IMG/VR virus record: IMGVR_UViG_3300036978_000139 | Location: 1-37,202 of that record | Length of the DNA stretch: 37,202 nucleotides | Direction: 5' to 3' (one strand) | From: a virus | Shown: positions 10,099 to 15,745 of the stretch, in pieces | How positions within the stretch are numbered: position 1 is the stretch's first letter | Layout: every line of letters starts with the position of its first letter | The notes under the pieces: model-generated | The model's input: only the letters and a program-made list of their open reading frames with translations | The model's database searches: none | Told to the model about the DNA's origin: nothing | Made by a program: the position numbers and the translations under genes

Positions 10099-10943
10099 TT
10101 ATATTAAATCAAACTGATGACTTGCAGGCTCCTTTGATCCTTTTCTTATATTGTCGAGACGAAGCATTGGTCTAAGGTTGGATATGTGATTTGCCATTCT
10201 TCTATCATTAGGATTTGTTAGATCAAATGCAGACAATGGCACAACATGATCAATAGTCCACTTTGTTCCATGATTATCCCATTTCATTCCGTTCTTAAAC
10301 TGAGATTCCAATCTAATCATTGCGTCATTAAATGAACATCCAATATAATCTTCTGTCCTCATCTCTCTATTTCCCTTAATATGATCAATAACCCTCTTGA
10401 TGTTTCGTCTCATTATTAGCCTAGTTTTTTGTATCGAAGTAAGTGGAATATCCCTTTTTATCTTTGCTGTGCTTCTCCTAATCCTTCTGTCAGCCTGAGA
10501 ATCCCTGCTAATTAAATCTAAGGCATTTGTCCTAGAAGAAAGAAGCTCTCTTTTCCCAGCAGTTTTGTTTGATCCTATCGGATTGTAAACACCGCTTCTA
10601 ATCATTTTAATCCTAACAGAAACGTGACTCATTGCCATAACCTTTCCTATAGTCTTTATCCCATATCCCAAAGATTGTAGGCAAGACATACATTGAACCA
10701 TTGACCCTAACTTATTTATTGTTTTGGCATAGCATTCATGGCAGCAATACTTTTGCTGTGGGCTTCCACATGAGAATTGGTTTGAGCATCGGATACATTG
10801 TTTTTGATATTTGATAGGGTTGTAGCCTTTGGCCTTCCCCCCTTCATTCCGTTCATCTTTGATGACTCGGCTTTCTTCTTCGACTTCAAAGAACCAAGGA
10901 TTTTCCCGATGTTGATTTGCTGATTGCAGTGTGGGCATTTCAT
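10099..10943 (-). CDS. Zinc-ribbon HNH endonuclease, apparently joined by -1 frameshift
   Basis: Two frames appear to form one protein of about 281 residues. The first frame starts at 10943 (MKCPHCNQQINIGKILG), contains a CPHC knuckle and reaches KMNGMKGG at codon 36. The second frame supplies a further zinc-finger region (CIRCSNQFSCG, YCCHEC), a basic helical linker, and a C-terminal HNH nuclease with FNDAMIRLESQFKNGMKW, WTIDHVVPLSAFD and SNLRPMLRLDNIRKG. The frames are connected exactly by a -1 shift at G GGG GGA (10842-10836). The zero frame alone would stop after 75 residues at 10716. The start at 10943 is supported by AGGA about 10 nt upstream. The region is visibly more AT-rich than its neighbours, suggesting recent acquisition. 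It may be a homing-type nuclease, or a packaging-associated HNH like that of HK97. Confidence 0.6.
10836..10842 (-). other. Candidate -1 slippery heptamer G GGG GGA
   Basis: The zero-frame codons are AAG GGG GGA. Slipping back one base gives GGG GGG and then AAG GCC AAA, which is the frame of the HNH region. The site lies in the purine tract AAGGGGGGAAGG. I find only a weak hairpin downstream (GCC-AAA-GGC), so stimulation is uncertain. A genuine indel in the G run is the main alternative. Confidence 0.45.
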
Positions 10944-10971
10944 TAAACATATATCCTATCTGCTAGGATTG

Positions 10972-11902: not shown

Positions 11903-12011
11903 CGAATACTTTTTGTGCCATATCTTTTTTGTATTGCAAATAGTTTCTTGTTTTTTTGCTCTGAATAAAGGGCGCTTTGCTGCCGCTCCCACCAAGAAAA
12001 ACAGTGGCTTT

Positions 12012-12050
12012 TTTATAGGCATCCAAACATCCACGTATCAACGCCTATAA
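12012..12050 (-). promoter_or_regulatory. Sigma70-like promoter overlapped by an inverted repeat
   Basis: On the minus strand TTGATA (12041-12036) is followed after 18 nt by TATAAA (12017-12012). An 8-bp inverted repeat, TTATAGGC/GCCTATAA, has one arm over the -10 element (12013-12020) and the other just upstream of the -35 (12043-12050), so a bound dimer could block the promoter. It lies in the 156-bp gap after the helicase gene and 110 nt before the HTH gene. The remaining leader is A-rich with no gene. Confidence 0.6.
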
Positions 12051-13484: not shown

Positions 13485-13850
13485 TTATAGACGCATACCG
13501 ACTGGCTTTTTTGCAGGCTTTGGAGCGTCACTTTTCGGACGCCCTCCTTTTTTGCCGTTGCGATAATTCGCGAACAATTTCTTGTTCTGATCCTGCCATT
13601 GATGCAACACAAGCGCATCTCCTTCGCGCCTTGCGTAGCCGCTTTCTATGAGTGCGTTTTCTAGTTGCATCGGGTCACCTTCCCAGTCGGCTATCGCTGC
13701 GACTATTTCCGCTGACTTTTCTATCCTTTCGCACTTGCGAAACTGGCATTGCGACCACAATTTGAGAAGGCTGAAAACGCCTGCGTGACCGGCTAGGCGT
13801 AGCAGGATCTTGGTTTTGTAGTGGTCTGGAAAGTCGGGTGATAGGATCAT
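13485..13850 (-). CDS. Replisome organiser / helicase-loader-like winged-helix protein
   Basis: This 121-residue protein starts MILSPDFPDHYKTKILLRLA. The following LLKLWSQCQ, AAIADWEGDPMQLENALIES, GYARREGDALVLHQW and KKGGRPK pattern is characteristic of short phage replication proteins with a DnaD/replisome-organiser-like N-terminus. These proteins bind the origin or load the helicase. It overlaps the ParB-fusion gene by 4 nt (ATGA), which fixes the start at 13850. It lacks a long C-terminal domain, so it may act only in origin recognition. The iteron-like array lies immediately downstream and could be its target (inference). Confidence 0.7.
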   Translation of the reverse strand: MILSPDFPDHYKTKILLRLAGHAGVFSLLKLWSQCQFRKCERIEKSAEIVAAIADWEGDPMQLENALIESGYARREGDALVLHQWQDQNKKLFANYRNGKKGGRPKSDAPKPAKKPVGMRL

Positions 13851-14761
13851 GGTGCAAATAATTTTATTAAAGAGTCTCCGTGGCATCGTTGAGGATAACA
13901 ATGACAGCAAAGAACCTTACCCTTCAATTCATTTCCTGAATCGGTAAATGAGTCTTTGTTTGGCGCGTAATGCTCTTCAAAGTAATCACAGACCCGATCT
14001 CGATCGCCGTCTTGACCAAGAATAAATGGATTACCCCATTTACTTGTTCGATCAATTGCCACCATCTTGCCGTTTTGGGTCGCCCATTGGATTAGATGCT
14101 TGTCTCGTTGGAAGTTGGCGACTACGGTCTCCCCGGCCTCCACTTTGGCCTTTCTTTCGATCTCGTCGGGAAGCCACTCCGGTTCGGTAGGCTTGCGAGC
14201 GACTTCTTTCATAGCGTCTTGCAATGTCATTTTACCGGCCTTTACTTTTTCAAATGCTTCAGGTGCTTCTGATTTTACTTTTGCAGCCTGATTGACATAT
14301 GTCCGGTTCGTGTTGAAAAGCTCAGCGGCTTTGGTTGCAGCCTCACGCTCTTGGCGCGGTTGGGCCTGTTCCACAATTTTTTGTGTAATAGGTTCTGCCT
14401 TTGCTTGTGTCGCGGCCTGCTTCTCCCGCCGCTCTTTCTCCACCTGCCCCGCAATCACCGACAAAACATCCTCAGCCTCGACTGCAATCGTTGCCCATTG
14501 CCCCTTGTTCAGATTGCGACGTTTGTTTGTTCGCATCACCAACTGCAATGCCGCAGATTGATCACCATCGAATGTTTTAATTGCTGGGGATATACCAATG
14601 GCTTGACAGGCTCGATACCTATTCCACCCATCAAGAATTGCTCCGTCATAAACAATGACGGGTTGGCTTTGGTCAAAGCCGTTGTTTCGTATGTCTTCCA
14701 GTAGTCGGTTGAAATCTTCCTCGTTGGCTTCTGGGAAGATGTTTAATGCGTGTTTTTTCAT
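13847..14761 (-). CDS. ParB-like nuclease/CTPase-fold protein fused to DUF4326
   Basis: The protein has 304 residues. Residues 1-75 are a ParB/sulfiredoxin-like domain with PVIVYDGAILDGWNRYRACQ (34-53). Residues about 78-165 include RRNLNKGQWATIAVE and an HTH-like segment (AAELFNTNRTYVNQAA). After a charged linker, residues about 225-304 form a DUF4326 domain: TSKWGNPFILGQDG (239-252) and GKVLCCHCYPQRCHGDSLI (281-299), with conserved Cys/His. DUF4326 has no assigned biochemical activity that I know. The first codon overlaps the stop of the HNH gene (ATGA), and the gene overlaps the replisome organiser. It probably binds phage DNA during replication or marks it. The combination is unusual. Confidence 0.85.
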   Translation of the reverse strand: MKKHALNIFPEANEEDFNRLLEDIRNNGFDQSQPVIVYDGAILDGWNRYRACQAIGISPAIKTFDGDQSAALQLVMRTNKRRNLNKGQWATIAVEAEDVLSVIAGQVEKERREKQAATQAKAEPITQKIVEQAQPRQEREAATKAAELFNTNRTYVNQAAKVKSEAPEAFEKVKAGKMTLQDAMKEVARKPTEPEWLPDEIERKAKVEAGETVVANFQRDKHLIQWATQNGKMVAIDRTSKWGNPFILGQDGDRDRVCDYFEEHYAPNKDSFTDSGNELKGKVLCCHCYPQRCHGDSLIKLFAP

Positions 14762-15668
14762 TTGTTGTGTTGTTGTTTATGGCATGATGCGCATAAAATT
14801 GTTAATGCACTATCTGGGTATTCCCAAGGCAAGAATTCAAAGTTATAGTATCTATGGTGGATGTGAAGAGGTTCATTTCCATCTGCGGCCCCGCAGGCTT
14901 GACATTTGTTGCCCCTATTTTTGAGTATGGCCAAGCGCCTTCTACGCCATCGAACATCGGCAAGAAGAGCGGGATAGAACCGCTTTTGCACTTTTTTAGC
15001 CTATGGATATGTGGGCAGCACCAAACATTGCGCCTGTTTACAAGAGTTCCTAAAACAAGCCATTTTTCATAGTCTGGATTACTTATCTGTAGGTTTTCAA
15101 ACAACCTAAATGGTGTCTGTGTATTGAACCTTAGATATTCATACACCTCCTGTCCTACAATATTTGTTTCGTGGTTGACTCCCTGTAGACTTGTCCAAGA
15201 AATCATAGGCTTGTATGGGAAATCCTTCTGGCATTTGATTGCTCCAAATGATTCTTCATCTTGCTCATCACATTCCCTGTAAGCCATAGCTGCCCCCATT
15301 TCTTTTGGTGCCTTCATTACAATAATGCTTTTCCTCTCATTATTTTGAAAGTTTATTGGGTCAATGTCTCCTGTTTGAATAGAGCATTTATTTAAAAGAA
15401 GTATTCTTTCATCCCTATCAATCAGTTTCGATATGCTTTTTATTGATATTGGTTCAAATGTTTCATCACGTGTATCTTTTGGATGCTTAACCATTTCAAT
15501 ATCGCAAACACTCCATATTTTGATATCCACATTATCGAATGGATGTAGTGGGTAAATTCTAATAAGACCCAAGTGCGGAGAAACGGCGATGGCGCATTGC
15601 GTTTCCCTTCCATCCTTCAACCTGTTTGGAGCGCCTTTAGCCAGGATAACTATGCGATCTTTTATCAT
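14758..15668 (-). CDS. OB-like domain plus HNH endonuclease, apparently made by -1 frameshift
   Basis: The zero frame starts at 15668 (MIKDRIVILAKGAPNRLK) and its meaningful part ends at RNVWCCPHIHRLKK, codon 226. It then runs on for 62 shadow codons to a stop at 14802. A -1 shift at A AAA AAG (14997-14991) enters the frame QKRFYPALLADVRWRRRR, which carries a complete HNH module: CQACG, LHIHHRYYNFEFLPWEYPD, and LCASCHKQQH. The product would be about 303 residues. The N-terminal part resembles dual-OB-type domains only weakly. The HNH frame can also start independently at GTG 14991, giving 77 residues. Its stop overlaps the ParB start by 4 nt, so it is embedded in the operon. The region is AT-rich, suggesting acquisition. 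Confidence 0.62.
14968..14997 (-). other. Candidate -1 frameshift signal: A AAA AAG plus hairpin
   Basis: The heptamer A AAA AAG (14997-14991) is read in zero frame as CTA AAA AAG. Six bases later begins a 5-bp hairpin AGCGG/CCGCT (14984-14980 with 14972-14968, 7-nt loop). Heptamer, phase, direction and 5-9 nt spacer all match dnaX-type bacterial signals. The shifted frame is closed upstream by TAG at 15003-15001, so it cannot encode the N-terminal part itself. Confidence 0.6.
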
Positions 15669-15685: not shown

Positions 15686-15745
15686 TCCCGCAATACGTCC
15701 ATGTGAGAATAGGCCAACAGCGAGCCGGATGGATGTATTGCGGGA
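15686..15745 (-). terminator. Long 16-bp inverted repeat before the OB-HNH gene
   Basis: Arms TCCCGCAATACGTCCA (15686-15701) and TGGATGTATTGCGGGA (15730-15745) pair over 16 bp with one mismatch that is G-U in RNA. The loop is 28 nt. On the minus strand the stem is followed by ATTTCTTTTTAAT, so it can act as a terminator for the upstream genes, although the loop is long. It ends 18 nt before the OB-HNH start codon, inside the 134-bp gap 15669-15802, which holds no gene. Confidence 0.5.

Follow-up and report, generated by a model that had tools for sequence, protein, structure and literature searches.

The dnaX gene of Escherichia coli (tau/gamma) gives two products with a common N-terminal part, using an A AAA AAG heptamer followed by a stem-loop. 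The product of the shift ends almost immediately and is the shortened form. In phages, the known frameshifts mainly fix the ratios among tail-assembly proteins, and those of the lambda G/GT type employ a -1 shift to make two forms differing in their C-termini. In influenza A virus, the PA-X frameshift exchanges C-termini across an overlap (PMC5009743).

The window analysed here is the whole 37,202-bp record of a phage, IMG/VR virus record IMGVR_UViG_3300036978_000139. Judging from its sequence, one of its genes is probably decoded by programmed -1 ribosomal frameshifting into a 288-aa form with a tail of its own and a 303-aa form ending in an HNH domain. This gene resembles dnaX in its A AAA AAG heptamer, in the similar spacing of its stem-loop and in two products with a common N-terminal part, but the phage slip would add an HNH domain, the zero-frame product possesses its own constrained tail, and no clear counterpart of the upstream Shine-Dalgarno element of dnaX was found at the site. 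It is similar to the lambda G/GT type as a phage gene with a -1 shift and two forms of different C-termini; that type, however, comprises structural genes with other slip sites, whereas the gene in the window is a DNA-metabolism gene with a nuclease. PA-X differs in its +1 shift, in belonging to an RNA virus and in its unrelated proteins. Proteins of the PDC-M19B/phrog_25907 group show a distant match to the N-terminal part, the same domain length and predicted OB folds, but all relatives examined are standalone proteins without HNH, often located beside DUF488 and ending in QxSLF. Standalone phage HNH proteins (phrog_119 and others) share the HNH core and the domain start but are encoded by single-frame genes, while the HNH of the window would be reached through the -1 frame of another gene. 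No published report of a frameshift-expressed HNH gene was found in the open-access literature.

Structure of the gene and its slippery site

The features of the gene are listed in Table 1. As the preliminary description stated, the heptamer stands in the X_XXY_YYZ phase for a -1 slip at the end of the 226-codon domain, the HNH frame is coupled through ATGA to the next gene, and fold prediction returns a 5-bp stem (AGCGG/CCGCU) after a 6-nt spacer. The identity of A AAA AAG as the dnaX slippery heptamer likewise agrees with the literature, where A_AAA_AAG is reported to serve in dnaX and to rank with the sequences most prone to shifting in E. coli (PMC5009743). The TAG described as closing the -1 frame upstream is present in the window and in the related contig L002 and absent from the related contigs L003 and L004. 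Just upstream of the gene start, at 15687-15744, the inverted repeat CCCGCAATAC...GTATTGCGGG and the T-rich run after it have a terminator-like appearance.

Table 1. Coordinates of the frameshift gene and associated features in the window
Feature	Position	Strand	Remarks
Zero-frame ORF, 288 aa	14802-15668	-	ORF reading of window
Codons 1-226, N-terminal part common to both products	14991..15668	-	Predicted tandem OB folds; distant kin of phrog_25907 and PADLOC PDC-M19B
Slippery heptamer A AAA AAG, -1 slip phase	14991..14997	-	Present in 4/4 relatives including the window
Invariant 48-nt block	14938..14985	-	Identical in 4 contigs differing by ~19% elsewhere
Hairpin 1 (predicted), AGCGG-UUCUAUC-CCGCU	14968..14984	-	-5.7 kcal/mol; 6 nt after heptamer
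Hairpin 2 (predicted), CUUCUUGCC...GGCGUAGAAG	14939..14967	-	-8.8 kcal/mol; abuts hairpin 1
Zero-frame tail, 62 codons + TAA	14802..14990	-	Purifying selection
QMEMNLF in zero-frame tail	14865..14885	-	Sliding-clamp-motif-like, invariant in 4/4 contigs; putative function
-1 frame, complete HNH domain (CxxC, HxHH, CxxCH), ends TGA	14758..14991	-	303-aa fusion with codons 1-226
TAG shutting -1 frame upstream	15001..15003	-	Window and L002
Next gene, ParB-like N-terminal part + DUF4326	13847..14761	-	Start overlaps HNH stop (ATGA)

The window contains 17 copies of A AAA AAG against 13.6 expected, a number near chance, so that the heptamer by itself is no evidence. Of the copies that stand in phase within called ORFs, no other has a recognisable domain downstream, and none has as strong a 3' fold. 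A dnaX-like Shine-Dalgarno stimulator 10-14 nt before the heptamer could not be clearly identified, the best pairing being -2.8 kcal/mol. Two more in-phase copies with long open -1 frames are found at 11924-12014; these lie upstream of or near a likelier ATG start and are probably untranslated.

Scanning IMG/VR with the N-terminal part as query yielded three other contigs, L002 (98% identical to the window) and L003 and L004 (both 90%, and so about 10% divergent in protein), and scans using other parts of the gene added no more relatives with this arrangement. All three match the window in heptamer and slip phase, have the same gene downstream and encode a zero-frame protein of 288 residues and a fusion of 303. 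The four contigs represent only two clades and are mosaic, and thus correspond to few independent events. Comparison of 14802-15668 with the three relatives displays near-identical and divergent stretches in a patchwork that continues across the start of the next gene and is, on these alignments, the mark of recent recombination. Since the same arrangement occurs in contigs of different metagenomes, sequencing error is excluded. A broader reading, that the HNH part is a decaying or frame-broken remnant or that the frame break is such an error, could draw on the tandem-OB and HNH relatives elsewhere, which are separate single-frame genes. Against it stand the identical break in all four contigs, the HNH metal and catalytic motifs retained in both clades, and HNH changes that are fewer, with no stops, than under a model of zero-frame constraint only; the four contigs together with the dual constraint described below lead us to reject error or decay, the least probable of the readings considered.

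In the N-terminal part, 126 of 678 positions distinguish the window from L003, yet the 48 nt that begin 5 nt past the heptamer are identical. When the 25 differences of the overlap were placed at random with codon-position weights, a 48-nt run had P of about 0.005 and one starting at the site P of about 0.0005, both values being post hoc as the block was spotted before it was tested. Two hairpins predicted in tandem have the bounds of the block, give or take 1 nt at either end; with their 6-nt spacer, they place a 3' structure within the range of 5-9 nt downstream. The 50 nt at the hairpins fold better than 99.7% of equally long windows from the first 1,000 nt, outdo every window of the N-terminal part and form the strongest local fold in the gene. 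Compared with dinucleotide shuffles, no unusual stability of the hairpins was seen (z ~0), and the element has no Rfam match. As the block is invariant across the four contigs, no covariation is demonstrable. Slippage of the polymerase at the A6 run would produce a mixed mRNA pool and from it the same fusion with no slip of the ribosome. There are six A residues at the site, but A6 is a short run for polymerase slippage, and conserved hairpins at ribosomal spacing would not be needed; we regard this origin of the fusion as very improbable.

Two C-terminal endings in overlapping frames

The zero frame had been described as losing its protein character exactly at the heptamer. This proved incorrect: 62 more codons are open in 4/4 relatives and are under purifying selection. 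Between the window and L003, the 25 changes in the overlap fall at the first, second and third zero-frame codon positions in the numbers 1, 7 and 17; the zero-frame tail has a dN/dS of 0.10 and the HNH frame one of 0.43. Simulation under constraint on the HNH frame only gave at least 17 zero-frame third-position changes in 0 of 2,000 runs as long as omega did not exceed 0.43, and raising omega to 1 brought the share to 0.05%, so that P is below 0.001 for the zero-frame pattern of this pair under HNH-only constraint. Simulation under constraint on the zero frame only (omega 0.05-0.1) always exceeded the observed number of HNH changes, and about three quarters of the runs acquired a stop in the HNH frame. 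The other two sequence pairs point in the same direction more weakly, the pairs are non-independent, and the contigs are mosaic. By this pattern of substitutions, the zero-frame tail and the HNH frame are both coding and both kept by selection, and the zero-frame product, with its constrained tail of 62 residues, is not a truncated by-product.

The tail contains the heptapeptide QMEMNLF, which is fixed in the four contigs while the overlapping HNH residues vary (D/N, N/D, P/S, L/F). Nearly all bacterial relatives of the N-terminal part carry QGSLF, QMSLL, QTSLF and similar sequences (QxSLF-type) at their C-terminal end, as do most viral relatives; Gordonia gp43 has QISLF near its end, and a Natronococcus relative ends in QPGLDSF, resembling the archaeal PIP box. 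Such pentapeptides are a known form of beta-clamp-binding motifs. EMNLF fits the relaxed motif [QE][LM][SDN]LF, as do 0.03% of shuffled tails, and does not fit the strict motif, for position 1 of the pentapeptide is not Q; looser patterns are found in 3% of shuffled tails. All these patterns were picked after the tail was seen, and clamp binding is accordingly put forward as a hypothesis, in which the zero-frame tail may contact the sliding clamp.

The -1 part keeps the HNH core in both clades. It scores 20.8 bits against Pfam HNH, just below the cut-off of 21.4, and 6e-10 against the PHROG HNH family, and would be expected to cut DNA. It resembles standalone phage HNH proteins starting near the beginning of the -1 part, which suggests an origin by the joining of a complete HNH gene to the OB gene. 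An in-frame OB-HNH fusion was not encountered among the single-frame relatives inspected, and a motif search around the relatives (22 viral and 25 bacterial loci) revealed no HNH neighbours. Matches to the HNH part in Acinetobacter and crAss genomes are located in unannotated stretches. Elsewhere in the window, the protein encoded at 10099-10950 has no Pfam match, and its C-terminal part (WTIDHVVPLSAF...N..NLRPM) resembles another HNH nuclease.

The main rival of frameshifting is internal initiation, with two overlapping genes that have their own starts and with HNH made alone, as a product of roughly 77 residues and 9 kDa, from GTG 14991 in the window clade and from an upstream GTG in L003 and L004. 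The best argument for a separate start is the N-terminus of the standalone HNH relatives, which roughly coincides with the beginning of the -1 part. In L003 and L004, a -1-frame GTG of their own precedes the -1 junction by 30 nt, with AAGGA 7 nt before it; strong Shine-Dalgarno sequences are rare in the genes of this phage, and their absence at 14991 is no bar. The codon following the slip is however GTC in L003 and L004, which rules out GTG 14991 as a conserved start, and the upstream GTG of these two contigs is a forced by-product of Trp-Cys codons, its counterpart in the window being followed by a TAG that cuts it off. Two different starts would therefore be needed. Internal initiation further leaves the conserved heptamer and the structure just past the start unexplained, and structure at that place would impede initiation. 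We consider it unlikely. Among the checked genes of the phage, only ~16% show strong Shine-Dalgarno pairing and many starts are A-rich, which suggests that the host uses Shine-Dalgarno sequences little.

The N-terminal part and the PDC-M19B family

The N-terminal part has no Pfam or NCBIfam match. It matches phrog_25907 at 3e-9 and PADLOC PDC-M19B at E 6.8e-7, the latter match covering only residues 1-84 against a model of 269 positions. PADLOC uses the label PDC for phage defence candidates, and no published defence test of PDC-M19 was found in the open-access literature. Relatives in PDC-M19B/phrog_25907 are standalone proteins of ~255-285 residues, distributed amongst Proteobacteria (often adjoining a DUF488 gene, PDC-M19A), haloarchaea and phages including Gordonia phage (gp43). 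A DUF488 partner (M19A) is not found in the window record, where the neighbour is the ParB-like/DUF4326 gene. In a Haloquadratum plasmid (L007:2974-5164), the gene next to the homologue encodes ParB-HTH-DUF488, and a neighbourhood of OB and ParB recurs in Haloquadratum and the window. In the Gordonia phage (L081:1018-4780), the gene for the homologue gp43 is flanked by those for the immunity repressor and the integrase, a position where phages usually carry genes for defence or exclusion.

The structure model of the N-terminal part from the window is weak (pLDDT 56), while a good one (pLDDT 84) was obtained for an Acidithiobacillus relative. Foldseek searches with both models retrieved OB-fold proteins, mostly binding single-stranded DNA (RPA, telomere-end-binding, HIN, SSB and RecO), and the matches of the weaker model were trusted only once the homologue had also given OB. 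The best VIA Z is 8.9 over 75 residues (rmsd 2.4), for which reason the assignment of the second half is weaker. The N-terminal part is thus predicted to consist of tandem OB folds, the second half less firmly, in keeping with the earlier label "OB", and would bind DNA. Proteins of the PDC-M19B/phrog_25907 group (L033-L065, L085-L108, L007, L008, L081) combine predicted tandem OB folds with, nearly always, a C-terminal QxSLF-type motif, and these two features could define the role of the family.

Decoding of the gene and its meaning

Programmed frameshifting is the best-supported explanation, because the heptamer and hairpins are conserved in two clades, the alternative GTG start is unconserved, and the structure search is consistent with the label OB. 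The 303-residue fusion first proposed to accompany a separate N-terminal form is partly supported by this evidence; what has changed is the zero-frame form, which carries a constrained tail. Ribosomes staying in frame would produce a 288-residue protein with the tandem-OB DNA-binding part and the conserved 62-residue tail, and ribosomes slipping at A AAA AAG, aided by the two hairpins just downstream, would replace the tail by the HNH nuclease in a 303-residue fusion, in which the two parts meet at HRLKK-VQKR. The calculated masses of the two products are 32.9 and 35.4 kDa. One mRNA would in this way give a DNA-binding protein with and without nuclease. Slippage itself, and its efficiency, we infer from these sequence features. 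A more specific version, offered tentatively and as less likely than not, is that the slip of the ribosome picks either a clamp-binding tail or HNH for a protein that is tandem-OB kin of candidate defence proteins, the two C-termini being dual-coded in the same 186 nt.

Such a slip would control the presence of a nuclease on a DNA-binding protein, both endings being under selection in overlapping frames, and gene callers would miss a nuclease of this sort. For the uncharacterised candidate defence family PDC-M19B, the comparison suggests a link with tandem OB folds and with a motif of the clamp type that lends itself to direct testing.
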